Assembly: GCA_963169235.1 (NCBI GenBank)
Contig: CAUJCX010000057.1
Coordinates: forward strand, 1-43,371
Origin: Actinomycetota bacterium
GTDB taxonomy: Bacteria; Actinomycetota; Thermoleophilia; Miltoncostaeales; Miltoncostaeaceae
DNA: 43,371 bases
Direction: 5' to 3'
Shown here: positions 1,551 to 32,256 of the stretch, piece after piece
Position numbering within the stretch: the first letter of the stretch is position 1
Layout: each line of letters begins with the position of its first letter
Program-made: the position numbers and the translations under genes
The notes under the pieces: generated by a model
Told to the model about the DNA's origin: nothing
Databases searched by the model: none
What the model saw: the letters and a program-made list of their open reading frames with translations, nothing else

Positions 1551-4145
1551 GTGGACGTGGCCGCTCAAGAGGTCTCAGTCAACTTGGGAGATGCGACGCC
1601 CCGACGCCTGCTGGTGGATTGGGCGAACGGTCAGGACGCATGGGTGCGTCAGATCACCGCTGAAACGATCCTCTCTCGCCAGGCACCGAGCGATGCCTTG
1701 CTGGACGCCGCCTACGCCACCTTCCTCGCTGAGAAAGGGCTTGGCGATGGCGAGGCCCCGGAAGTCCCAAAGCTTGAACTCGTCGCTGCGGATGCGGCGG
1801 AAGAGGAGACTCTCGAACTCGTCAGTCTGGCGAACATCGAAGGCGTCAACGCACTCGCCGCCGACCAAGAGCTTGACTTCGACCCGGAACTGACCGTGCT
1901 CTTTGGGCAAAACGGATCGGGGAAGACGGGGTATGCACGAATACTGAAGCGCATCTCGGCTGTTCGGACCGCTGAGGACATCCTGCCGAACGCGCACACC
2001 GCCTATTTCGATAGCCCGCCGTCGCCCAGCGCCACCATCCAGTACCGACTGTCTGGCACGGACTCCTCGGTGATGTGGAAGGACGAATCCGGCCTTGCGC
2101 CATTCACACGCATCAGCGTCTTCGACGCGAGCGCAGTGTCGCTGCACGTTGACAGCGATCTGGGTTACGTCTACACGCCGGCCGAACTCGCACTGTTTGG
2201 TCACGTCGCTGCCGGGCTGCAAGGCATTCAGCAGCGGATCGCCACCGAGGTCAAGGCATTGGCGCCGGGGAGCAACCCGCTGTTGTCGAGGTTCACGCGA
2301 GGTACGAAGGTGTATCCCGTGATCGAGACCCTGGGTGCTACCACAGACCTTGCGGAGCTTGACGCACTGGCAACGCTGCCCGACGGTGCCGAGGCCAACC
2401 GCGAGCGTCTCGAAGGTGAGATCGCGGCATTGCGTTCCAACTCGCTCGACGCGATTCTCTCCAGCGCACAGGAGATGGGACGTCACCTCAATCGGCTGCA
2501 CGGCGTGCTTACAACGGCGATGAACTTCGATGCGGTCGTCTACGAGAAGGCCCGGGTGAAACTCCAGGAAGCGGAAGGTCGAAGGACAGAAGCGCGAGAG
2601 CAACTCTTCAGTCAGGATGAGCTGCCAGGCCCAGCAGATGGGGAATGGCAGGAGTTCATCGTTGCGGGGGACTCGTACCGCCAACACCTTGGCCGCGAGC
2701 ACTATCCAGCTGCCGGGGACAAGTGCCTCTACTGCATGCAGGAGCTCAGCTCGACGGCCTTGAATCTGCTGACTCGCTATCGCACGTTCCTCGATGAAAC
2801 GCTTGTCCGTCAGGTCGAGGACGCGAACACCGAAGTGCGCAGCTCCAGCCTCAGGTTCGACGAAGCCGAACTAACCCGCGCGAACGAGTTCGCCACAGAA
2901 CAGCGGGATGGTGAAGACCCACCGGCATGGGCCACTCAAGCATGTGAGGTGCTCGCGGCGGCTCGGGCCGCCGCTCAGGACACCGCGAATGGGAAGCCCG
3001 TGACCGCAGGCACCCTCCGAGAGAGCGCAGAAACAGTAACCTCCACGGTCGCAGCCGAACTGGCGACTGCGCGGGCAGCGGTCCAGCAGATGTCGGAGGA
3101 CAAAGCGAATGCGGCAACCGCGCTCACCGGCAAGCAGAAGGAACTTTCAGAACTCGCTGCACGCATTGAGTTGAACCGGAACATCGCCGCAGCCCGCGAG
3201 TATGTCCGACGCGCGCGAAGAGCGCAACAGCTCGACAAGCTCTCACGGGTCATCTCAAGCGGCGCGTCGAAGCAGCTCACGGTCCAGTCCAAACTCGCCA
3301 GCGAAGACCTCGTGAACAAGAACTTCGAGACGCTGTTCGCCGAGGAGTGCGCTCGCCTCCGAGCGCCTCGCGTCGCACTTCGATTTCAAGGGCGCAGCGG
3401 ACAGGCGCAACGCAAGAAAGCGGTCGCCTCATACAAGCCCTCTGCGGTGCTCTCGGAAGGTGAGCAGAAGGTGCTGGCGCTGGCCGACTTTCTTGCCGAG
3501 AGTCGGATGCGAGGGACCAAAGCACCTCTGGTCTTCGATGACCCGGTGACAAGTCTCGACTACCGCAGACTTGATGAGGTTGCTGCACGCATCCAGAATC
3601 TCGCCGAGACACACCAGGTCGTTGTCTTGACCCACAACATCATGTTCGCGTCAGCGCTGATGGCGGCCAGGCAGAACAAGAAGCTCAGGACGAAAATCTA
3701 CGAGGTGCGCGACGGCGGAGAGGCCAAGGGAATCCTGGCCCCGGACGTCGAGCCGAGGCTCGATACGCCAGCCGATCTGGCCAAGCGGATCAACGTCAAG
3801 CTTCAAGAGATGACGAGTGCCGAGCCGGTGGTTCAGGATGCACTCATCAAAGAGACCTACGACCTCATTCGCGCCTGGTGCGAAGCCTTCGTCGAGCAGG
3901 AGCTCCTACAGAACGTCACACAGCGGTACCGCAAGAACATCATGATGACCCGCCTGTCGAAGATCGACAGCTCTCGGCTCGATGCTGCCATCGCAGTCAT
4001 TGAACCTCTCTTCGATCGTGCTTGCGAGCGAATGACCGGACACTCCCACGCCGCCGAGTACATGAGCACCAAGCCGACTGTGAACGAAGTGCAGGAAGAC
4101 TGGGAGAAGGCGAAAGCAGCGCGCTCGGCATACATCGCCACCTGA
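1551..4145 (+). CDS. AAA/ABC-type ATPase of the PrrC/RloC (AAA_13) kind, candidate anticodon-nuclease-like defence protein
   Basis: 864 aa, GTG start preceded by GGACGGAG (a GTG two codons later is an alternative). Walker A GQNGSGKT is at residues 119-126, followed by a long coiled-coil-like middle with a CLYC pair (C392, C395) at the turn, like a zinc hook. The ABC signature LSEGEQ is at 634-639, Walker B LVFDDP at 660-665, and a switch-like LTHN follows. This split-ATPase layout matches RloC/PrrC-type proteins, SMC-like ATPases that in known cases cut tRNA anticodon loops during phage infection. In the C-terminal ~90 residues R774-x3-E778 and H831/H833 resemble the Arg-Glu-His triad described for those nucleases. 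The spacing from Glu to His is longer than I recall for PrrC, so nuclease activity is inference. It lies between a relaxase and dprA on the mobile segment. ATPase fold: confident; nuclease role: moderate. Confidence 0.8.
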   Translation: MDVAAQEVSVNLGDATPRRLLVDWANGQDAWVRQITAETILSRQAPSDALLDAAYATFLAEKGLGDGEAPEVPKLELVAADAAEEETLELVSLANIEGVNALAADQELDFDPELTVLFGQNGSGKTGYARILKRISAVRTAEDILPNAHTAYFDSPPSPSATIQYRLSGTDSSVMWKDESGLAPFTRISVFDASAVSLHVDSDLGYVYTPAELALFGHVAAGLQGIQQRIATEVKALAPGSNPLLSRFTRGTKVYPVIETLGATTDLAELDALATLPDGAEANRERLEGEIAALRSNSLDAILSSAQEMGRHLNRLHGVLTTAMNFDAVVYEKARVKLQEAEGRRTEAREQLFSQDELPGPADGEWQEFIVAGDSYRQHLGREHYPAAGDKCLYCMQELSSTALNLLTRYRTFLDETLVRQVEDANTEVRSSSLRFDEAELTRANEFATEQRDGEDPPAWATQACEVLAAARAAAQDTANGKPVTAGTLRESAETVTSTVAAELATARAAVQQMSEDKANAATALTGKQKELSELAARIELNRNIAAAREYVRRARRAQQLDKLSRVISSGASKQLTVQSKLASEDLVNKNFETLFAEECARLRAPRVALRFQGRSGQAQRKKAVASYKPSAVLSEGEQKVLALADFLAESRMRGTKAPLVFDDPVTSLDYRRLDEVAARIQNLAETHQVVVLTHNIMFASALMAARQNKKLRTKIYEVRDGGEAKGILAPDVEPRLDTPADLAKRINVKLQEMTSAEPVVQDALIKETYDLIRAWCEAFVEQELLQNVTQRYRKNIMMTRLSKIDSSRLDAAIAVIEPLFDRACERMTGHSHAAEYMSTKPTVNEVQEDWEKAKAARSAYIAT

Positions 4146-4179
4146 GCGGCGGATCAGCGTGGAAGCGGCTCGCGGGCGG

Positions 4180-5178
4180 CTACAGGGCGCGGGCGTTCAT
4201 CGACGCCGTGGCTGCTGAGCGTCGCCCTGAATCGCGGGATGCCGCAGAAGCCCGGATCGCGCTTGCGCTGTCACGTCCGCGTGGAGAGAGAAGGTCCGCG
4301 GCATCCGTGACCAGTGAAGCGCGATCTCGCAGGAGTTGGTGTGGCCCGGCGCTCGTTGCGCTGGTCACCGGGCCGGGAACAGCTCCGACGGCGCGCCCGA
4401 GTTCGTGCGCATGCCGGGCGACGGTCATCGATCCAGATCGAGCGCCGGCTTCGACAACGACGGTCGACGCGGCGAGCGCGGCCATCAGCCGCGTCCGAGC
4501 AATGAAGCGATGGCGCGTCGGCACCGTGCCCGGCGGAACCTCACTGACAAGGAGTCCGAGGTCTGCCACCCGCTCAAGCAGTTCACGGTGACCCATCGGG
4601 TAGGGGCGATCAACGCCGTTCGCCACGACCGCGATCGTGTCGCCGCCTGACGCGAGGGCCGCTCGATGAGCAGCACCTTCGATGCCGTACGCACCGCCGG
4701 CCACGATGATCCGCTCAGCGCTGGCGAGGTCGGAGGCAAGCTGCCCGGCCACATGCTCGCCGTAGGAGGTCGAGGCCCTCGCGCCGGTGATCGTGACGAG
4801 ATCGTTGAGCGGTCGTGCGAGGAACGATGTCGTGCCACGAGTCCACAAGACGTACGGACGCCGGTCGCCAAGATCGTCGAGCGCGGAAGGCCATTCTTTG
4901 TCGCCGGGAGTCAGCGTGCCGATACCGGAGCGCTCGGCTCCGACGAGGTTCTGTTCAAGTGTCCGAGCATCTGAGCGCTGGAACTGGGCACGCCACACCT
5001 GAGCGTCAACGGTACGGAGCCCCGGCACCGCGTCTTCCCCCTCGGCGAGCCGAAACAGCTCAAGCGCACCGAGCTCGCCCAGGAGGCGACCGGTCACGGC
5101 ATCATCCGGTTCAACGAGCATCGACAGCGCCATCCGCGCCGTGCGCTCGTCCTGGACTACCTGGCTCAGGATCGTCAT
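4180..5178 (-). CDS. dprA: DprA/Smf-like DNA-processing protein
   Basis: 332 aa, ATG start with GAGAGGAGG upstream. Residues ~1-110 form a helical N-terminal region; residues ~120-300 are the Rossmann-like DprA domain, with ITGARAS, an AGGAYGIEGAAH segment corresponding to the SGxARGID motif of DprA, a VANGVDRPYP stretch, RHRFIARTRLMAALA (RNR of canonical DprA is RTR here), GSMTVARHAHELGR and VPGPV. DprA binds single-stranded DNA and loads RecA during uptake or transfer. The C-terminus is a short Ser/Ala/Arg-rich tail with no clear winged helix. It is convergent with the ATPase gene (34-nt gap) and divergent from the small membrane protein. Being beside a relaxase, it is more likely an element-borne paralogue than the chromosomal copy. 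A role in protecting incoming single-stranded DNA is inference. Confidence 0.85.
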   Translation of the reverse strand: MTILSQVVQDERTARMALSMLVEPDDAVTGRLLGELGALELFRLAEGEDAVPGLRTVDAQVWRAQFQRSDARTLEQNLVGAERSGIGTLTPGDKEWPSALDDLGDRRPYVLWTRGTTSFLARPLNDLVTITGARASTSYGEHVAGQLASDLASAERIIVAGGAYGIEGAAHRAALASGGDTIAVVANGVDRPYPMGHRELLERVADLGLLVSEVPPGTVPTRHRFIARTRLMAALAASTVVVEAGARSGSMTVARHAHELGRAVGAVPGPVTSATSAGPHQLLRDRASLVTDAADLLSPRGRDSASAIRASAASRDSGRRSAATASMNARAL

Positions 5179-11798: not shown

Positions 11799-11964
11799 GG
11801 GGATCTCCGGTCGTCGGGTGTGGCGCGCATCCTGTCACGCGCGACGGCGAACGGGCCGACGCGGCGATCGCCTGCGGCGCCTTCATGCTCCGGCGACGCG
11901 ATGCCGATGAAAGTGGCGATGTGTGGCACCATGACGTGCCTCAGACGACGTGGAGGAAAATGTC

Positions 11965-13176
11965 ATGGCCGTCGCAGTCGAGTCGTACGTCTCGGCACGG
12001 GGCAGCACGGCGGACGCCGTGGCCGATCTCGACGCGCAGCTGTCGCGCGGCGGCGGCACCCCCCACTTCGCGTTCGTGTTCTACGGCCAGTGCCACGACG
12101 ACGCGGTGATCGACGGCTTCCTGCGCGCGCGGCTCCCCGGGGTGCCCCTGGTGGGCGGTACGTCCTGCGCCGGGGTGATGAGCGACCACGGGCTGGGCGG
12201 CGCCGACTCCCTGGGGCTGCTGCTGGTGCACGACCCGGACGGCGCGTACGGGTCGGCGGCCGCCCCGCTGGGGGACGATGCGTCGGACACCGCGCAGCAG
12301 ACGCTGACCCGGGCCCTCGCATCGGCCGACGCCGCGGGTGAGCTGCCCGAGCTCATCTGGGTCTACCAGAGCCCCGGGCAGGAGGAGGCAGTGATCGCGG
12401 GGCTGCGGCGGGTGGTCGGTGACCGCTGCCCCATCATCGGCGGCAGCTCGGCCGACGACGACGTGTCGGGCGTCTGGCGCCAGATGGGCCCCGACGGGCC
12501 GATGCGCAACGGCGTGGTGGTCGGCGTCCTCTTCCCATCGGGCGGCGTCGGGTTCGGGTTCCAGGGCGGCTACGAGCCGACCGGCGAGCACGGCGTGGTC
12601 ACCGAGCTGGGCGACGACACCGGGCAGGGGGTCGGCCGGCACATCCTCACCATCGACGACGCGCCGGCGGCGGAGGTCTACAACGGCTGGCTCGGCGGCA
12701 CGCTGCCCGCCGACGCGATGGAGCACGGCGGCCCCATCCTGGAGGCCACCACCAGCACGCCCCTGGCCGTGGGAGCCGGCAGCGTGGAAGGCGTGACGTA
12801 CTACCAGCTGATCCACCCCGAGGCCATCACGCCGCAGAAGGGGCTGGCGACGTTCGCGGCGGTCGAGCGCGGCGCCCGCGTCCACGGCATGCGGGGCAAC
12901 CGTGACCACCTGGTGACGCGCGTAGGACGGGTCGTCTCCACCGCGCAGTCGTCGCTGCACGTCGGCGCCAACGACGTCGCGGGCGGCATCGTCGTGTACT
13001 GTGCCGGGTGCCTGCTGGCCGTCGGCGACCGGGCCCCGGAGGTGGCCGACACGGCCCGTCAGAGCTTCGGCGACGCGCCGTTTCTGGGCAGCTTCACGTT
13101 TGGCGAGCAGGGCACCATCCTCGACAGGAACCTGCACGCCAACCTGATGATCTCGGCCGTGGTGTTCGGCCGCTGA
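11965..13176 (+). CDS. FIST N- and C-domain sensory protein (NosP-like)
   Basis: 403 aa from the ATG at 11965, which has GGAGG 8 nt upstream; a GTG at 11950 would place that site inside the gene. It spans a complete FIST protein: the N-domain (about residues 30-215) has PLVGGTSCAGVMS and CPIIGGSSADDD segments, and the FIST_C domain (about 225-385) ends in FGDAPFLGSFTFGEQG. FIST proteins are soluble ligand sensors, and the NosP subgroup binds haem and nitric oxide and controls kinases or c-di-GMP enzymes. This gene is followed after 31 nt by a GGDEF/EAL gene on the same strand, so a two-gene signalling operon is likely. The ligand is not shown by sequence. Confidence 0.9.
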   Translation: MAVAVESYVSARGSTADAVADLDAQLSRGGGTPHFAFVFYGQCHDDAVIDGFLRARLPGVPLVGGTSCAGVMSDHGLGGADSLGLLLVHDPDGAYGSAAAPLGDDASDTAQQTLTRALASADAAGELPELIWVYQSPGQEEAVIAGLRRVVGDRCPIIGGSSADDDVSGVWRQMGPDGPMRNGVVVGVLFPSGGVGFGFQGGYEPTGEHGVVTELGDDTGQGVGRHILTIDDAPAAEVYNGWLGGTLPADAMEHGGPILEATTSTPLAVGAGSVEGVTYYQLIHPEAITPQKGLATFAAVERGARVHGMRGNRDHLVTRVGRVVSTAQSSLHVGANDVAGGIVVYCAGCLLAVGDRAPEVADTARQSFGDAPFLGSFTFGEQGTILDRNLHANLMISAVVFGR

Positions 13177-13207
13177 GTCGGCGACGGTTGCGCGGATCTG
13201 CCCTTCC

Positions 13208-15178
13208 ATGAACGCCGGTCATGACAGCACGGAGGAACTGCGTGAGGTGATCCTCGCGCAGCATCGTCAGCTCGACGCGCTGCAACGCGAGGTGGACGAC
13301 GCCGAGGTGCTCATCCAGGCGCTGAACGCCCTGCTCAAGCTGGACGCCGACGCGGAGCCGTTCGCCAGCGTGTTCGACGTGCTGGCGCCGCTGCTGCAGT
13401 TCTCCCACGCGCTCGTGCTGGTGGAGGACGACGCCCCCGACGCCTCCCTGCGTTGCGTCGCCGCGAGCCACCCCGGGCTGGTCGGCACCGCGTGGGACCG
13501 GACGCCCATCATCAGCAAGGCCGTGGGAGGACGGGTGATCGCCACGGTCCCGCCCGGGACGGGAGACGCGTGGCCGCCCGACGTGGTGCGGTGCGGGCTG
13601 TCGCCCGACCAGCCGGCGCTGTACCTGCCCCTGGGCTCCCGCGACCGCCGCGGCATGCTGATGCTGCTGCGCCCGCTCGGCACCGAGGGCTACGACCGCC
13701 GTGACATCACGGTGGCCCGCAAGCTGTCGCTGCTGGCCTCCCACGCGTTCGCGACCCGGCAGGCGAACCGCAGCGAGAAGGAGCGCCGTCGCCTGCACGA
13801 GCTCACCAAGGAGCTGCGCTCAGCACAGGACGCCCTGGCGTACCGGGCGAACTACGACCCGCTCACCGGGCTGCCGAACCGCGCGTTCTTCGAGGAGCAG
13901 ATCACGCGGGCGACGCGCGAGCTGGCCCCGGGGCAGAAGATGGCGCTCGCGTTCATCGATCTCGACGGCTTCAAGCAGGTCAACGACTTCTACGGCCACG
14001 ACACCGGCGACAAGCTGCTGACCGCGGTGGCCGAGCGGCTGCGCGACCACATCCGCGACCACGACATCCTGGGGCGCATCAGCGGCGACGAGTTCGTGCT
14101 GCTGCTGAACCCCATCGCCGACGCCGCGTCGGTGACCCCGATCGTCGACCGCGTACTCGACGGGCTGCGCGAGCCGTTCCACATCGGCCCGCTGCACCTG
14201 ATGGCGTCGGCATCCGTGGGTCTGGCCGTCTTCCCCGACCACGGCGACGACTACGAGCGCCTGCGCCGCAACGCCGATATGGCCATGTACAGCGCCAAGA
14301 ACAACGCACGCGGCCGCGCCGCGTTCTTCGAGGACCGCATCGCGCGCGCCACCACGTCGCGCGCCCGCGCCGAGCAGGAGCTTCGCCGGGCCGTGGCCGA
14401 CGGCCGCTTCCGCGCGGTGCTGCAGCCGAAGATCGACCTGATGACCATGCGCGTCGTCGGCTTCGAGACGCTCGCCCGGCGGGTGGGCGGAGACGGCTCC
14501 CTCGGCCCGGGCGCCGACTTCATCGAGCTCGCCGGCGACCTCGGCCTGCTCGACCAGATCACCGACATCGTCCTGGACAGCCTCCTCACCGACCTGCCCG
14601 GGCTCGACGCGGCCTACGGCGACGGCACCTCGATCAGCGTCAACGTCGCCACGGGCCAGGCCACCGATCCGCGGCGGATGGACGCCGTGCTGGCGCGCCT
14701 GCGCGGCACGGGCCGTCCCGACCGCTTCGTGGTGGAGGTCACCGAGGACGCCCTGCTGAACGCCGACGCGTTTCGCGATGACGTGCTGCCGCTGCTGGTC
14801 GACGCCGGCGTGCGCGTCTCCATCGACGACTTCGGTACGGGGTACGCCGCGTTGTCACGCATGGTCGACGTCCCCGCCGACGAGGTGAAGATCGACCGCT
14901 CGTTCGTCACCACGGTGCACGAGCGCGCCCGCAGCCAGGTGATCGTGCGGGCGTTGTCGACCGTCGGCCACGAGCTGGGCAGCAGCGTCGTCGCGGAAGG
15001 CGTCGAGACCGTCGACGAGCTGCGGTACCTGGTCACGCACACCGCCATCCGCTACGGGCAGGGGTACCTGTTCGCACGGCCCGCTCCGGCTCACGACCTG
15101 ATCGCGCGACGCGCACAGCTACTCGCGTCGCTGGCGCGCCTCGAACGGCCGCCGCGGCTGGCGGTGGCCGACGGGTGA
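13208..15178 (+). CDS. GAF-like/GGDEF/EAL bifunctional cyclic-di-GMP enzyme
   Basis: 656 aa, ATG start. A coiled coil (residues 8-45) leads to a GAF-like sensor domain (~50-175), a linker helix, then GGDEF (~210-370) and EAL (~385-640). The GGDEF active site reads SGDEF (292-296), with an RDHD inhibitory site (283-286) five residues upstream, so synthesis with product inhibition is plausible. In the EAL domain the signature is ETL (420-422) rather than EAL. The other conserved sites are intact: N479, E510 in VVEVTE, DDFGTG (540-545), K561 in KID, and AEGVET. Hydrolysis is therefore also plausible. No membrane segment is present, so it is cytosolic. It lies directly after the FIST gene, its likely upstream sensor partner. 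Confidence 0.93.
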   Translation: MNAGHDSTEELREVILAQHRQLDALQREVDDAEVLIQALNALLKLDADAEPFASVFDVLAPLLQFSHALVLVEDDAPDASLRCVAASHPGLVGTAWDRTPIISKAVGGRVIATVPPGTGDAWPPDVVRCGLSPDQPALYLPLGSRDRRGMLMLLRPLGTEGYDRRDITVARKLSLLASHAFATRQANRSEKERRRLHELTKELRSAQDALAYRANYDPLTGLPNRAFFEEQITRATRELAPGQKMALAFIDLDGFKQVNDFYGHDTGDKLLTAVAERLRDHIRDHDILGRISGDEFVLLLNPIADAASVTPIVDRVLDGLREPFHIGPLHLMASASVGLAVFPDHGDDYERLRRNADMAMYSAKNNARGRAAFFEDRIARATTSRARAEQELRRAVADGRFRAVLQPKIDLMTMRVVGFETLARRVGGDGSLGPGADFIELAGDLGLLDQITDIVLDSLLTDLPGLDAAYGDGTSISVNVATGQATDPRRMDAVLARLRGTGRPDRFVVEVTEDALLNADAFRDDVLPLLVDAGVRVSIDDFGTGYAALSRMVDVPADEVKIDRSFVTTVHERARSQVIVRALSTVGHELGSSVVAEGVETVDELRYLVTHTAIRYGQGYLFARPAPAHDLIARRAQLLASLARLERPPRLAVADG

Positions 15179-15189
15179 CTCCGGGCCGT

Positions 15190-15242
15190 GGGGCCCTCAC
15201 GAGGAGACGCGCGCGTGCGGAGCCCCGAGGGCCCCGCACGCG
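15190..15242. terminator. bidirectional hairpin terminator between convergent genes
   Basis: GGGGCCCTC (15190-15198) pairs with GAGGGCCCC (15227-15235); an alternative 9-bp stem CGCGTGCGG (15212-15220) / CCGCACGCG (15234-15242) overlaps it. It lies between the ends of the GGDEF/EAL gene and nirK and could end transcription both ways. Confidence 0.6.
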
Positions 15243-15252
15243 TGACGGACGG

Positions 15253-16332
15253 CTAGTGGTGGCCGTTCTCGCCGGGGTCGGCCGCGGCGCCCGGACCGGG
15301 CTTGCCGTCGCCGGCCAGGATCATGCCCACGGCGCCCTTCGCGGCGTGGTCGAACTGGTGCGTGACGAACGGGAACTTGCCCTCGCCCACGAACTTCATC
15401 TCGAACACACCGGCGCCCGAGGCGGGCAGGTTGTACGTCTGGCGACCCACCGTGAGGTTGTGGTCGTCGGTGTTGCCGTCGGCGTACACCTTGTCGAAGA
15501 TCGTGCCCACCACGTGGAAGCTCGACTGCTCGCTGGGGCCCGCGTTCATGACGAACAGGCGCGCCTCGCTGTTGGCCTTCACCTTGATGGGGTTGGCGAT
15601 GTACTGCGACGGAATGCCGTTGAACGCCATTGCGTCAGGCTTGCGGTTGATGATGTCGTCAAGCGACGCGTACAGCTCGGACTGCGTGATGGCGTACTCG
15701 GGCATCGGGCGACCGAAGCCTTCCTTGGGCTGCACGATGATCATGCCGTACATGCCCATGCCGATGTGGTGCAGCACCGGCGCCGTGGCGCAGTGGTACA
15801 TGAACACGCCGGGGTAGTCGAGCTTGAACTTGAACTCGCCGGCCTTGCCGGGCGCCACCTGCACCTCGCCGCCACCGAGGCTCATGCGCGATGCGTGGTA
15901 GTCGACGCTGTGGAAGAACTTGCTGGTGGGGTCGTTCTTGATCTTGATGGTGACGGTGTCGCCCACCACGGCGCGCAGCACGGGGCCGGGCACCTGGTTG
16001 TTGAACGTCCACATGCGGTAGACCTTGTCGCCCACCTTGACGTTCTTCTCGGTCGTGGTGAGCTCGAACGTCTTGTTGCCCGGCTGCACCGGCCGGGTGC
16101 GGGGGTCGTACTCACCCAGCGTGATGTCGACGGGACCGGCGGGTGCCGTCGTCGCCGCTGCGGCCGTGGTGCCCGCCGCGGGGGTGTCCGCAGACTTACT
16201 GTCGCTGCTGCACGATGCGATACCAAACGCGGCACCGGCCATTGCGACAGCGGCGCCAATCAGCGCTGCACTCGCTCGCGGACGCCGCAGGCGCGCCGTC
16301 CGGGCGTCACGACCCTTCGTCACGTCTGCCAC
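15253..16332 (-). CDS. nirK: copper-containing nitrite reductase, AniA class, lipoprotein
   Basis: 359 aa, GTG start with GAGGAG 7 nt upstream. A basic N-terminus and hydrophobic segment end in a lipobox IASC (C41), so it is probably a lipid-anchored extracytoplasmic protein. Two cupredoxin domains follow. Type 1 copper ligands are H141, C181, H189 and M194; type 2 ligands are H146, H180 and H325; the catalytic Asp and His correspond to D144 and H273. The short C-x7-H-x4-M loop (CATAPVLHH then GMGM) and SSFHVVG...FDKVY match AniA rather than the longer loop of Alcaligenes NirK. The enzyme reduces nitrite to nitric oxide. It is convergent with the FIST-GGDEF/EAL pair, and a cytochrome c lipoprotein gene 5 kb away is a possible donor. 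No nitrate or NO reductase gene is in the window. Confidence 0.9.
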   Translation of the reverse strand: MADVTKGRDARTARLRRPRASAALIGAAVAMAGAAFGIASCSSDSKSADTPAAGTTAAAATTAPAGPVDITLGEYDPRTRPVQPGNKTFELTTTEKNVKVGDKVYRMWTFNNQVPGPVLRAVVGDTVTIKIKNDPTSKFFHSVDYHASRMSLGGGEVQVAPGKAGEFKFKLDYPGVFMYHCATAPVLHHIGMGMYGMIIVQPKEGFGRPMPEYAITQSELYASLDDIINRKPDAMAFNGIPSQYIANPIKVKANSEARLFVMNAGPSEQSSFHVVGTIFDKVYADGNTDDHNLTVGRQTYNLPASGAGVFEMKFVGEGKFPFVTHQFDHAAKGAVGMILAGDGKPGPGAAADPGENGHH

Positions 16333-16470
16333 TTACTGCTCCTCTCGTGTCGGGTCACCCACGAAAGGGCCACCCACGCTGTTACACAGTCAACGGTTCC
16401 ACCGACCGGGCCCTGAGTCGAGGGATCACTCCACACACATGGCGAGCGCCCCACCTTTATGTGACACATG

Positions 16471-16483
16471 TCGAATATTTCGA
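16471..16483. promoter_or_regulatory. inverted repeat TCGAA-TAT-TTCGA between nirK and the RNB gene
   Basis: A 5+5 inverted repeat in the 186-bp divergent region, with TGTGACACA (16460-16468) next to it. It is the least GC-rich spot in the gap and could bind a regulator of either gene. It does not match an FNR or NsrR consensus that I can recall exactly. Confidence 0.3.
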
Positions 16484-16505
16484 CGCGATGCGGGGGCAGC
16501 GGCGC

Positions 16506-19836: not shown

Positions 19837-20855
19837 ATGACCGTGTTGCGCTCCCTGTTCGCCGCGCCCGAGCACCGGCGGGCCGCCGCCCGCTCCGCGG
19901 GCGCGTTCCTGCTCGTCGGGGCGGCGTTCCTCACCCTGTTCAGCATGATCCTGCCCGGCTGGGACGGTGGCCGTCCCGCGCTGATGGCCGCCGTCGTGGC
20001 CGGCCTGACGGTGCAGGGAGTGCGCGGTTGGTTCTTCCCGCACACCATGACGCCCGCCGAGATGGCCCTCTTGCCCCCGCTGCTGGCGTGCGTGGTGGCG
20101 GGCCAGAACGCGTGGACGATGGACGCGACGGCCGGGGCCCAGATGTTCCTCCTGTGGCCGCTTGCGTACGCCGCGCTGTTCCTCAACTCCCGCAGACGCT
20201 GGTGACGCTGGGCACCGTGATCGCCGCCGACCTGATGTCGGTGGCGCACGTCCTCTCGCTCGACGCGGCGCTCGCCGACGTCGCCAGCGTCGCCGTCGCG
20301 TTCGCCGGCACGGCCATCGTCGTGCACTCCCTGCGCCGGCGCCTGTCCGCGATCCTCGCCGAGAGCGAGCGCCACGCCCACCAGGATCACCTGACGGGCC
20401 TCGCCAACCGCAGGGCGTTCAGCGCCGCGCTGGACGCCGCCCTCGCGCACCGCACCCGCACGGACGAGCCGCTGTCGCTGGTGACGGTGGACGTGGACGA
20501 CTTCAAGGAAGTGAACGACACGCGGGGCCACGCCGCGGGTGACGCGGTGCTGCGCCAGGTCACGGCGGCTCTGCGCTCAAGCGTCCGGCGCGGCGGCGAC
20601 ACCGTCGCGCGGCTGGGCGGTGACGAGTTCGTCGCCCTCCTGCGGGGGTGCGATCAGGACGATGCCGCGAGCCTGGCCGAACGGATCCGCAGCGACGTGG
20701 CCACGCGCACGGGCGGCGTCACCGTCAGCATCGGGGTCGCCACGCTCACGTCCGGCACGGCCAGCCCGGACGAGGTGATGCGCGCATCCGACGGCGCCCT
20801 GTACGCCGCCAAGGCGTCGGGACGCGACCGCGTCTCGGCGGCCGTGATCGCCTAA
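19837..20855 (+). pseudogene. membrane GGDEF diguanylate cyclase, frameshifted
   Basis: Two overlapping frames together make one protein. Frame 1 (ATG 19837 to TGA 20205) gives four hydrophobic segments ending FLNSRRRW; frame 3 continues from about 20190 with TLVTLGTVIAADLMSV, another membrane segment, a linker, and a full GGDEF domain to 20855. The total is 1019 nt, one base short of a whole number of codons, so a single-base loss near 20190-20200 explains the break. The GGDEF domain has DHLTGLANRRAF, LGGDEF and an RGGD inhibitory site five residues upstream, all intact. Without the shift it would be a ~339-aa membrane diguanylate cyclase. A sequencing error is as likely as a true mutation; a programmed -1 shift is possible but no slippery heptamer is evident. 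Confidence 0.75.
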
Positions 20856-21384: not shown

Positions 21385-21526
21385 CGCCGTCCCCGTGCCC
21401 GGTGAAACCGTGACAATCGGCGCAGATCGTGCGTTTCGGTCACAAAGTCACCCCTCAACCCTGGCGATCCCGGGGACCGTTGTTAGGATGCTCCTAGCCT
21501 ATCCGCAGTCGAGGGAGCTACGACGT

Positions 21527-21991
21527 ATGCGCAGAATGAAGAAGACCGCGGCGCTGCTGGCGATCGCGAGCATCGTTGGTGCCGGCGCTCTGGCCGGGTG
21601 CAACGACTCGAAGGGCGCAGACGCCTCCACGCCGGCAGGCGCCAGCACGGTGGCCAACACCGCGGTGCAGACGGACTCCGACGGCAAGACGGCCACGACC
21701 GAGGCCACCACGCCTCCCGCCGAGACGGCCGCGACCGAGCCCGGTGACGACGCGGGCACCGGCGGCGACGCCGCAGCCGGCAAGACGCTGTTCGACGGCA
21801 CGTGCCAGGGCTGCCACCCCAACGGCGGGCAGGACGCGGGCGTGGGCCCGAAGCTGGCCGGCGCTGCGGGGCTTGACGCCGCACTCGTGAAGGACCGCAT
21901 CGTCAACGGCAAGGGCGCGATGCCTCCGGGCCTGGTCACCGACCCGACCGACGAGGCCAACGTCATCGCCTACGTGATGAGCCTGCAGTAG
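21527..21991 (+). CDS. monohaem c-type cytochrome lipoprotein
   Basis: 154 aa from the ATG at 21527, with GAGGGAG 9 nt upstream; TAGGAT at 21484 is a possible -10. The N-terminus is a lipoprotein signal with LAGC at residue 25. A Thr/Ala/Pro-rich linker (26-80) leads to a small class I cytochrome domain: CQGCH haem site (93-97) and GAMPPG, where M132 is the likely sixth ligand. It should be tethered outside the membrane and carry single electrons. Nearby electron-transfer genes (nirK, ETF-QO) make it a candidate donor to the nitrite reductase, which is inference. Confidence 0.9.
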   Translation: MRRMKKTAALLAIASIVGAGALAGCNDSKGADASTPAGASTVANTAVQTDSDGKTATTEATTPPAETAATEPGDDAGTGGDAAAGKTLFDGTCQGCHPNGGQDAGVGPKLAGAAGLDAALVKDRIVNGKGAMPPGLVTDPTDEANVIAYVMSLQ

Positions 21992-27559: not shown

Positions 27560-28363
27560 GTGACCACGCAGATCACGCAGCCCAGTGGGACCGATGCCGG
27601 TGCGACCACGACCGTGCGCGCCGCGATCATCGTGCCGGCGTACAACGAGCAGGACAACCTGCCGAACCTGTTCGGCGAGCTCGAGTCGGCCCTCGCGGGC
27701 AGCCCGCACACCTACCAGGTGATCATCGTCGACGACGGCTCCGACGACGACACCGCCGCGCTGGCCGACGCGTACCGCGGGCCCGTCGCGCTCGACCTGG
27801 TACGCCAGGGCGTCAACAAGGGTCTGGGCGAGGCGCTGATGGCGGGTTTCCGCCGCGCGCTCGACGATGAGGACCTCGACGTCATCGTCACCATCGAGGC
27901 CGACACCACGTGCGACCTGGGCCAGCTCGACCGCATGGTCGACGAGGTGGTCGCCGGCGCCCACGTGGCGCAGGGCTCCATGCACCACCCCGACGGCGAG
28001 ATGGTGGACGTGTCGGGCTTCCGCCAGCTCACCAGCCGCGCCGCGAGCGTGGTGATGCGCCTGGCCACCGGGTCGTCGGTGCACACGTTCACCAACCTCT
28101 ACCGCGGCATCTCGGTGCCGTTCCTGCGCGCCGAGTTCCAGCGCCACGGCGACCGCCTCATCACCGAGCCGGGCTTCGCGGGCGTCACCGAGCTGCTCAT
28201 CCGCTTCATGGCGGACGGCGGCAAGGTGGTGGAGGTGCCGATCACCCTCAACGCCCACAAGCGCGTGGGTGAGAGCAAGATGAAGGTGTGGCCGACCGTG
28301 AAGGCACAGGGGCGCGTCGCGAGCAAGGCGATGATCGGCCGGCTGCGGCGGCGATTCCTCTGA
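27560..28363 (+). CDS. family 2 glycosyltransferase (polyprenyl-phosphate sugar synthase-like)
   Basis: 267 aa, GTG start with AAGGGA upstream; TAGCAT at 27493 is a plausible -10. The GT-A fold is clear: AAIIVPAYNEQDNLPNL, VIIVDDGSDDDT, NKGLGEALMAGFRRAL, and the metal-site region IEADTT where the usual DAD is EAD. The C-terminal half has FTNLYRGISV and HKRVGESKMKV, as in dolichol-phosphate mannose synthase-like proteins. No membrane helix follows, so it is a soluble DPM1-type enzyme. It probably charges a polyprenyl phosphate with a sugar for the GT-C enzyme just upstream. It is followed immediately by the FAD oxidoreductase gene. Confidence 0.9.
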   Translation: MTTQITQPSGTDAGATTTVRAAIIVPAYNEQDNLPNLFGELESALAGSPHTYQVIIVDDGSDDDTAALADAYRGPVALDLVRQGVNKGLGEALMAGFRRALDDEDLDVIVTIEADTTCDLGQLDRMVDEVVAGAHVAQGSMHHPDGEMVDVSGFRQLTSRAASVVMRLATGSSVHTFTNLYRGISVPFLRAEFQRHGDRLITEPGFAGVTELLIRFMADGGKVVEVPITLNAHKRVGESKMKVWPTVKAQGRVASKAMIGRLRRRFL

Positions 28364-29733: not shown

Positions 29734-30937
29734 TCAGCTCGGCGTACGCGCGCACCAGGTTGGCGCGCGACGTCTCCCAGCTGAGCGACTGCTCGACGCG
29801 GCGGCGCCCCCGCGCGCCCATGCGCTCACGCCGCTCGGGGTCGTCGAACAGCTCGCCGACCAGGCGCCCGAACTCGCGGATGTCGTCGCCGTCGCCACGC
29901 GTGTAGACCGCGGCGTCCCCGGCGGTGACGCGCGCCTCGTGCAGGTCGAACGACACCAGCGGCTTCGACATGGCCATGTACTCGACCACCTTGTTCATCG
30001 ACGAGACGTCGTTGAGCGGGTTCTTCGGGTCGGGCGACAGGCAGACGTCGGCCGTCGACAGCAGCGCCTGGACGTCGGCGTCGGGGACGCGCCCCGTGAA
30101 CTCCACCGTGTCGTCCAGGTCGAGCTCGTGCGCCAGGCGCACGCAGTCGTCGTACGCGTCGCCGCCGCCGATGAACGTGGCGTGGAAGTCGTCGCGGCCC
30201 AGGTCGTGGCGCAGGTGCGCCATGGCCCGTAGCGCGTAGTCGACGCCGTCCTGCGGGCCCATGACCCCCAGGTAGCAGGCGAGAAACGGCTTGCCGCGCT
30301 TGAGGGCGGGGTCGGGCGCGACCGGCACGAACCGCGTGAGGTCGGGGGCGCTGCGCACCACGGTGACGCGGTCCGGGGGCACGTGACCGCGTTCGATCGC
30401 GGCCCGCCGGTAGCTCTCGTTGGTGCAGATGACCGCGTCGGCCAGCCAGAACGTGGCCCGCTCGAACGCGCGCACGCCCGCCATGAGCGCTCGCGGGCCG
30501 TTGACGAAGCGCGACGTGAACAGCTCGGGCACCAGGTCGTGGTGGTCGAACAGAAACCGCGTGCCCGAGCGACGGATGGCCAGGGCCACCAGGAACAGCA
30601 GGTCGGGCGGGTTGCATGCGTGGACGACGTCCACGGGGCCGTCGGCCGCCAGGCGGCGGGCGATGCGCACCGTGTGCCACAGCGCCGTGCCGTACTCTTT
30701 CAGGTACCCGGCGGGGCCGCCGGTGGCGGGCGTCAGCGGGTAGCGGTGGATGCGCACGCCGTCGATCTCGACGAAGGCCTCGGTGTCGCGCTTGGTGCCG
30801 CGCGGGCAGATGACCTCGACCGCGTACCCCGCGTCCACGAGCGCCTTCGACTCCTGCCACACCCGCCGGTCGAACGGCACCGACAGGTTCTCCACCAGGA
30901 TGAGGACCCGCGGGCGGCGGCGGGACGCGTCGGTCAC
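29696..30937 (-). CDS. family 4 glycosyltransferase
   Basis: 413 aa from the GTG at 30937, which overlaps the stop of the dehydrogenase gene by GTGA; the frame is open far upstream but only as a shadow of that gene. It is a GT-B fold: RVLILVENLSVPFDRRVWQE at the N-terminus, DVVHACNPPDLLF, then FLACYLGVMGPQDGVDYALR, and the nucleotide-sugar site SSMNKVVEYMAMSKPLVSFD near residue 320. Family 4 enzymes transfer sugars with retention, here probably from a nucleotide sugar onto the growing repeat unit. Coupling to an AlgD-like dehydrogenase suggests that it may use the uronic acid sugar made by it (inference). Confidence 0.9.
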   Translation of the reverse strand: MTDASRRRPRVLILVENLSVPFDRRVWQESKALVDAGYAVEVICPRGTKRDTEAFVEIDGVRIHRYPLTPATGGPAGYLKEYGTALWHTVRIARRLAADGPVDVVHACNPPDLLFLVALAIRRSGTRFLFDHHDLVPELFTSRFVNGPRALMAGVRAFERATFWLADAVICTNESYRRAAIERGHVPPDRVTVVRSAPDLTRFVPVAPDPALKRGKPFLACYLGVMGPQDGVDYALRAMAHLRHDLGRDDFHATFIGGGDAYDDCVRLAHELDLDDTVEFTGRVPDADVQALLSTADVCLSPDPKNPLNDVSSMNKVVEYMAMSKPLVSFDLHEARVTAGDAAVYTRGDGDDIREFGRLVGELFDDPERRERMGARGRRRVEQSLSWETSRANLVRAYAELISRPRRSLLRRP

Positions 30938-32256
30938 CAGCAGAGGCCGTCGTAGCGGCCGTCGCCCTCGCGCTCGTCGGCGCCCGGATAGCGCACCAGG
31001 TCGACGACGTGCGCGCCGGGTGCCGACGCGAGCGCCCGCACCACGTCGGGATCGGCGTTGCCCACCACCAGCACCTCGCCGTGGGCGGCGACCGCCTCGG
31101 GGGTGGACGCCATCAGCTTGTTGAGGTGCGGGATGCGCTCGTCGACGTACGCCCGGTTGGCGCCCATGAGGGTCGACAGCGACACGTTGGAGTCGTAGAT
31201 GAGCAGGTCGAAGCCGCGCCCCATGAGGCGCTCGGCCAGCTCCACCAGCGGGCTCTCGCGCAGGTCGTCCGTGCCCTTCTTGAACGACAGGCCGAACATG
31301 CCCACCCGCTTCTTGCCGGTGGCCGCGACCGCGTCGAACGCCCGGTCGATGTGGCGGGTGTTGCTGGGGATCACGCTGTCGAGGATGGGCACCGCGACGT
31401 CGGCGTGGCGGGCGGCGTGCGTGATGGCCCGCAGGTCCTTCGGCAGGCACGAGCCGCCGAACGCGTACCCGGGTTTCAGGTAGGCGGGCGAGATGTTGAG
31501 CTTGCGGTCGGACGTGAAGATGTCCATCACCGCGTGGCTGTCGAGCCCGAGCGCCTTGCAGATGCGCCCCACCTCGTTGGCGAAGCCCACCTTCAGCGCG
31601 TGGAAGCTGTTGTCGCAGTACTTGACCATCTCGGCGACGCGCACCGCGGTGCGGTACACGGGACCCGGCAGGCCCTCGTACAGCGCGGCGACGGCGTCGC
31701 CGCTGGCCGCGTCGACCTCGCCGATGACCGTCTTGGGCGGGTCGAAGAAGTCTTTGACCGACGTGCCCTCGCGCAGGAACTCGGGGTTCACGGCCAGGCC
31801 GAAGCCCTCGCCGGCCACCATGCCCGACGCCTCCTCGAGGCGCGGGCGGATGACCTCGTCGCACGTGCCGGGCAGCATGGTCGACCGCAGCACCACCGTG
31901 TAGCGGTCGGTGCGTCCCTTGAGGGCGGCGCCGATCTGCCCGGCCACCTCCTCGAGGTAGCGGGTGGACAGCGCGCCCGAGGGGGCCGACGGCGTGCCCA
32001 CGCACACCAGGGCCATGTCGGTGGCGGCGATGGCCTCGGCGTGGTCGACGGTGGCCCGCAGGCGTCCGGCGGCGACCTGCTCGGCGATGAGGTCGCCGAT
32101 GCGTTCCTCGACGACGGGCGTGCGCCCCTCGTTCACCATGGCGATCTTGTCGGGGTTGACGTCCACCCCGATGACGTTGTTGCCCCGGCTGGCAAGGCAG
32201 GCGGCGCTGACGCAGCCTACGTAGCCCATACCGAAGACGGCGATGTTGTGCGGCAT
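30934..32256 (-). CDS. UDP-glucose/GDP-mannose 6-dehydrogenase family, AlgD-like
   Basis: 440 aa, ATG start. The NAD-binding GMGYVG is at residues 9-14. The middle domain has NPEFLREG (157-164), and K212/N216 in MVKYCDNSFHA. The catalytic Cys is C270 in the GGSCLPKD motif. A C-terminal domain with ANRAYVDERIPHLNKLM resembles AlgD of the alginate pathway more than UDP-glucose dehydrogenases. It performs the four-electron oxidation of a nucleotide hexose to a uronate. GDP-mannuronate is the best guess, UDP-glucuronate the alternative. It has no Shine-Dalgarno; a TANNNT hexamer 7 nt before the ATG suggests a leaderless message. It is divergent from the polysaccharide lyase gene. Confidence 0.9.
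   Translation of the reverse strand: MPHNIAVFGMGYVGCVSAACLASRGNNVIGVDVNPDKIAMVNEGRTPVVEERIGDLIAEQVAAGRLRATVDHAEAIAATDMALVCVGTPSAPSGALSTRYLEEVAGQIGAALKGRTDRYTVVLRSTMLPGTCDEVIRPRLEEASGMVAGEGFGLAVNPEFLREGTSVKDFFDPPKTVIGEVDAASGDAVAALYEGLPGPVYRTAVRVAEMVKYCDNSFHALKVGFANEVGRICKALGLDSHAVMDIFTSDRKLNISPAYLKPGYAFGGSCLPKDLRAITHAARHADVAVPILDSVIPSNTRHIDRAFDAVAATGKKRVGMFGLSFKKGTDDLRESPLVELAERLMGRGFDLLIYDSNVSLSTLMGANRAYVDERIPHLNKLMASTPEAVAAHGEVLVVGNADPDVVRALASAPGAHVVDLVRYPGADEREGDGRYDGLCW

Follow-up and report, generated by a model that had tools for sequence, protein, structure and literature searches.

Several described bacterial systems place a FIST protein next to a signalling partner. In Vibrio cholerae, VpsV (VcNosP) is reported to be an NO-binding haem protein that controls VpsS (PMC6769237, PMC7046293). 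VpsS itself belongs to the hybrid histidine kinases and passes its signal to LuxU (PMC6769237). VpsS and NosK are described as having no recognised sensory domain and as being controlled by a FIST protein (PMC6769237, PMC12570481). The NosP-NahK system of Pseudomonas aeruginosa and the NosP-NahK-NarR system of Legionella act in the end on c-di-GMP or biofilm formation (PMC8846402, PMC11784011). Control of c-di-GMP enzymes can also be direct: a stand-alone H-NOX protein controls the dual c-di-GMP enzyme encoded next to it in Shewanella woodyi (SwDGC) and in Legionella (Hnox1-Lpg1057) (PMC8846402, PMC11237717), and in CdpA of V. cholerae a FIST is fused to an EAL domain (PMC8846402).

Here we describe a FIST gene directly followed by a GGDEF/EAL gene in an actinobacterial contig of the class Thermoleophilia (CAUJCX010000057.1, assembly GCA_963169235.1). 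The whole stretch of 43,371 nucleotides that was analysed is called the window. The arrangement is like that of VpsV-VpsS in that the FIST gene lies directly upstream and the partner starts with the same coiled-coil/GAF module, and both FIST proteins belong to the same clade, provided that the Vibrio-like copies found here (loci L137-L140) are the orthologs, as gene order and kinase size suggest. Whereas VpsS is a kinase, the module in the window carries GGDEF and EAL domains directly. As in the P. aeruginosa and Legionella systems, the FIST protein is encoded beside its signalling partner, but the proteins that fit the NosP family are from another FIST branch, and the window pair includes neither a kinase nor a response regulator. 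The unit proposed here shares with SwDGC and Hnox1-Lpg1057 a stand-alone sensor, although FIST and H-NOX are unrelated sensor families. As in CdpA, the FIST is tied directly to a c-di-GMP enzyme; CdpA is one fused chain, whereas the window encodes two proteins, joined through the GAF module as we propose. Our preferred reading, which we consider probable, is that the FIST protein and its GGDEF/EAL partner form a two-gene, one-step signalling unit connected by the coiled-coil/GAF module, and that the nitrite reductase gene (nirK) next to them is an ordinary neighbour.

Gene pair and domain content

The features of the pair are as follows, with the basis of each in brackets.

11952-11956, plus strand: Shine-Dalgarno-like GGAGG, 5' of the FIST start codon (ATG at 11965) (direct sequence reading)
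11965-13176, plus strand: protein of 403 aa with FIST_N and FIST_C, a presumed soluble sensor (Pfam, tree)
13208-15178, plus strand: partner enzyme of 656 aa, with coiled coil, GAF, GGDEF and EAL in this order (ORF, Pfam, orthologs)
13208-13792, plus strand: N-terminal coupling module of the partner, residues 1-195, with a helix at 4-43 and a GAF at about 47-191 (hhalign, AlphaFold2)
13847-14314, plus strand: GGDEF domain, with SGDEF at residues 292-296 and the I-site RDHD at 283-286 (Pfam, motif positions)
14375-15082, plus strand: EAL domain with the motif ETL and the catalytic N, E, DD, K, E and Q present (Pfam, motif positions)

The reading frames of the pair and of the nirK-like gene were found at the positions given in the original prediction, and the pair is operon-like, with 31 nt from the end of the FIST gene to the partner ATG at 13208. 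Third-position GC supported coding for the FIST gene (0.95), the partner gene (0.94) and the nirK-like gene (0.91). Both FIST domains scored above their gathering thresholds (PF08495 FIST_N, E 3.8e-23, 82.8 bits against 23.2; PF10442 FIST_C, E 2.7e-19, 70 bits against 28.5). In the partner, GGDEF (2.7e-46) and EAL (2.2e-49) were detected by Pfam, and the catalytic motifs of both domains were intact (SGDEF, RxxD, ETL, N, E, DD, K, E, Q). The enzyme is thus a predicted dual cyclase/phosphodiesterase. The GAF domain, also named in the original prediction, was below the Pfam cut-off (GAF_3, E 0.0023), yet the predicted fold of this region is that of a GAF. A further GGDEF gene, whose reading frame extends upstream, is located 5 kb from the pair (20028-20855).

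Distribution of the pair

No match to the window FIST was found at E<=1e-20 in the other genomes of its class (n=349), and the congener (G001), whose FIST is of another kind, gave none even at E<=0.001. Across the sampled phylum, this FIST turned up in a single further genome. It belongs to a distant actinobacterium of another family (G584), with a FIST about 62-63% identical and a GGDEF/EAL ortholog (52%) that begins 16 nt after it. A scan of the genome collection added two more FISTs, from an alphaproteobacterial MAG (57%) and from Tritonibacter multivorans (49%). The Tritonibacter gene precedes a GGDEF/EAL ortholog (35%), and the FIST gene of the MAG is followed by a HisKA kinase gene; over its first 190 residues this kinase shares 39% identity with the window partner. 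In the Pseudomonadota sample, 69 of 383 genomes had a FIST match. There were 15 strong matches (E<1e-75), including the Tritonibacter gene itself; the other 14 were examined together with the locus of Aeromonas caviae, and a histidine kinase gene was found directly after the FIST gene at all 15 of these loci.

In most loci of the clade the FIST and partner genes were separated by short gaps or had overlapping reading frames, and their adjacency is kept across phyla. This conservation supports the earlier view of the two genes as a functional pair. The distribution is scattered and the actinobacterial pair is nested among Proteobacteria in the tree, which suggests that the pair spread by lateral transfer. 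This FIST clade is now seen outside Pseudomonadota, in two actinobacterial genomes.

In the class at large, FIST_C was present in 117 of 348 sampled genomes, and a GGDEF, GAF or kinase gene adjoined the FIST gene in at least 17 of 29 class loci examined. The second FIST of this genome (G000:C55:5478-5897; L069, about 2403-4900, minus strand) is of the common Thermoleophilia type and is followed by a PAS-GGDEF-HD region. The three-gene arrangement had been described as unfamiliar in Thermoleophilia; for its first two genes this needs correction, as a FIST gene followed by GGDEF is common in the class, this second copy included. The general FIST-GGDEF arrangement is therefore ordinary here, and what sets the window pair apart is its FIST clade and the coupling module. 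One locus (L146, 3894-6005; the same gene as in L114) encodes a fusion of a FIST with a SpoIIE-type phosphatase that has SiaA as a relative.

Clade and candidate ligands of the FIST protein

In a tree of 68 FISTs, the 19 module-linked proteins formed one group with a support of 100/100, separate from the NosP-like group. The NCBIfam model for NosP (NF041558, an equivalog model with a cut-off of 450 bits) gave no match to the window FIST at E<=0.1, and relatives in the same clade scored 25-72 bits. One protein of the NosP-like group scored 449.9 bits, indicating that the model fits another FIST branch. Given this lack of a match, we dropped the label 'NosP-type', which the original prediction had given to this gene. 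The part of that label that stands is a probable connection to a published haem/NO protein, as the branch probably holds Vibrio VpsV/VcNosP. This assignment is based on three or four loci (L137-L140) that contain a module-linked FIST, a cytoplasmic hybrid kinase of 574 aa and a divergent cbb3 oxidase operon. Judged by the gene order of the VC1439-VC1445 region of V. cholerae, these are probably the VpsV-VpsS locus. The clade with L137-L140 has a support of 100/100, and with the VpsV identity of these copies taken from gene order, VpsV (VcNosP) is a probable member of the window FIST clade. The window FIST is about 31-32% identical to the Vibrio-like copies. The FIST-kinase pair of L137-L140 stands back to back with the cbb3 oxidase operon, a hint of a link to respiration.

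Few if any of the FISTs compared lacked H391 or C346, and H284 was present in 18 of 19 proteins of the window clade and in none of 49 other FISTs. These three residues are candidate haem ligands as judged from their conservation. The model of the FIST protein (pLDDT 59, centre unmodelled) was too poor to show a haem pocket, and no solved structure was significantly related by sequence to the window FIST.

By analogy with the Vibrio protein, NO sensing by the window FIST is plausible. It is also quite possible, if short of probable in our judgement, that the FIST protein controls the same partner enzyme in response to something other than NO, such as free haem, amino acids or another small molecule. 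FIST was originally predicted to bind small ligands (cited in PMC4398556), CdpA of V. cholerae is reported to be haem-responsive (PMC8846402), and V. cholerae makes no NO, with a vpsV mutant showing no change in quorum sensing (PMC7046293). The lack of detection by the NosP model points in the same direction. On the other hand, VcNosP, which probably belongs to the same clade, is reported to bind NO, and with H391, C346 and H284 candidate haem ligands are present.

N-terminal module of the partner enzyme

A module of about 190 residues was common to the kinase and the GGDEF/EAL partners of this FIST clade. Alignments made from the kinases only and from the GGDEF/EAL proteins only matched each other in hhalign with a probability of 98.3 (E 1.5e-14, 172 columns), compared with 0.3-2.4% in the same profile comparison for a control, the partner of another type of FIST that also carries a GAF. 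At each of the 19 loci examined in this FIST clade, the N-terminus of the direct downstream partner aligned with the module. An independent profile was built from the window, G584, MAG and Tritonibacter partners. When it was run on the 15 kinase partners left out of building, 10 gave the module at E<1e-3 and an eleventh at 1.4e-3; the 4 of 15 that it missed were placed through the multiple alignment only. For 20 FIST genes from outside the clade, neighbourhoods of limited length showed no such module. Co-occurrence at the 19 clade loci versus the 20 others gave a Fisher p of 1.5e-11, a count in which four kinases enter through the multiple alignment and the controls through the limited-length neighbourhoods. 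With the FIST-coupled module defined as an N-terminal coiled coil plus a GAF directly 3' of a FIST of this clade, the window partner carries it.

AlphaFold2 predicted the module as a long helix followed by a GAF fold (pLDDT 81), and the model superposed on GAF-B of DevS with Z 15.9 and an rmsd of 2.4 Å over 129 residues. The same GAF type was found on four alphaproteobacterial PAS/GAF kinases (L065-L068) that have no FIST neighbour, and therefore the module is not exclusively FIST-linked. Three of these four genomes carry a FIST elsewhere, from the NosP-like branch.

From the sequence comparisons we infer that the module couples FIST proteins to interchangeable outputs. The gene order, the homology, the clade-specific co-occurrence of the module, the catalytic motifs and the predicted GAF fold are observed. 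In the proposed mechanism a ligand, haem/NO if the protein is like VpsV/VcNosP of Vibrio, would alter the FIST protein, which would dock onto the N-terminal coiled-coil/GAF module of the partner. Docking would then shift the balance between c-di-GMP synthesis by the GGDEF domain and breakdown by the EAL domain. Outputs would have been swapped behind one and the same module, with histidine kinases in Pseudomonadota and GGDEF/EAL here, and the GGDEF/EAL version would bypass the relay of kinase and response regulator. Overall this would be a one-step version of the action of VpsV on VpsS. The physical docking, the ligand and the sign of the effect are what we infer at present. The shared module names a probable docking site for the kinases as well, and a two-protein system without a phosphorelay makes the control of an output by a FIST protein directly testable.

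Ligand binding is frequent among GAF folds, and the module could be a ligand sensor in its own right, with the FIST protein acting elsewhere and the two genes co-inherited without their products forming a complex. The related GAFs on kinases that lack an adjacent FIST would fit this explanation. We nevertheless regard it as unlikely, given the strict co-occurrence throughout the clade loci examined, the short gaps or overlapping frames in most of them, and the search beside 20 other FISTs, which gave no module.

The adjacent nitrite reductase gene

Two further features adjoin the pair.

15179-15252, no strand assigned: intergenic region between the convergent genes, containing a strong hairpin with its stem around CGCGTGCGG/CCGCACGCG (RNA fold)
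15253-16332, minus strand: secreted two-domain copper protein, NirK-like (structure match, copper and catalytic residues)

The nirK-like protein was closest to the Geobacillus-type copper nitrite reductase (3x1e, 1.2e-58). Like the Geobacillus/AniA-type enzymes it has two domains, all ligands of the T1 (H, C, H, M) and T2 (H, H, H) copper sites, and the catalytic Asp and His, with the motifs in register with 3x1e (HSVDYH 141, YHC 179, HHIGMGM 188, SSFH 270, VTHQ 323). Unlike curated NirK, it scored under the TIGR02376 cut-off (181.8 against 296.3 bits). The convergent AniA-class nitrite reductase of the original prediction was thus confirmed as to its copper and catalytic residues, with the Geobacillus type as its closest relative and with a score below the curated threshold. 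The region 15170-15262 folded with -50.5 kcal/mol (z -2.0), and this modelled hairpin is likely the boundary between two transcription units.

The nirK gene of the congener was 79% identical, with the similarity ending at the gene ends and the neighbours being different. No FIST of the window type was found near nirK at ten other relatives' nirK loci examined, and the flanks retrieved for the remaining module-linked FIST loci contained no nirK. A box of the FNR/Dnr type (TTGAT-N4-ATCAA) was not found within 2 mismatches upstream of the FIST gene or of nirK. The genome has tens of c-di-GMP genes (62 first-look candidates), and we estimate the chance of one of them lying beside nirK at a few per cent, which is not rare; the adjacency therefore needs no special explanation. 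Together, nirK looks like an ordinary, chance neighbour of the pair. A link between nirK and the FIST protein through diffusing NO is possible, without genomic support.

The original prediction had instead joined the three genes into one circuit, in which NO made by nirK would be detected by haem in the FIST protein, and the partner would adjust c-di-GMP and, through it, polysaccharide production. We consider this circuit quite improbable. The copper and catalytic residues of nirK are intact, the published NO/haem sensor VpsV/VcNosP (PMC6769237, PMC7046293) is probably related to the window FIST, and NO diffuses, so that shared transcription is unnecessary. These points are outweighed by the order of the genes, which is kept neither in the congener, where the same-genus nirK sits elsewhere and the window-type FIST is absent, nor at the other nirK loci. 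FIST, GGDEF/EAL and nirK occurred together in no relative examined, nirK is convergent to the pair with the hairpin in between, no FNR/Dnr-like box was seen, and a chance neighbour is not rare with so many c-di-GMP genes. No link of the polysaccharide genes to the FIST system was seen either; a UDP-glucose/GDP-mannose dehydrogenase gene (30937-32256) and a family 2 glycosyltransferase gene (27560-28360) lie 12-17 kb from the pair. A combined version, with the GAF as receptor for the whole FIST clade, kinases and c-di-GMP enzymes being swapped, and the window pair acting as a one-step NO-to-c-di-GMP switch with NO from nirK, is in our opinion very unlikely.

Among the haem-copper oxidases of the genome, no canonical NO reductase was found, as none matched a NorB model. 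Two divergent genes for haem-copper oxidase subunit I (G000:C15:9498-10856 and G000:C36:16778-18115), far under all NCBIfam cut-offs, could encode alternative oxidases or unusual NO reductases. Upstream of nirK, in the gap that separates it from the divergent gene for an RNB exonuclease, lies a perfect 15-bp inverted repeat, GTCGAATATTTCGAC (16470-16484). It is the sole copy in the window, is absent upstream of the nirK of the congener, and is a possible operator. A cytochrome c gene lies 5 kb from nirK (21395-21991). A relative of this cytochrome (L028, 8672-9172; 61% over the matched stretch) directly adjoins a nirK copy in genome G012, and for this reason the cytochrome c may be the electron donor of the reductase.
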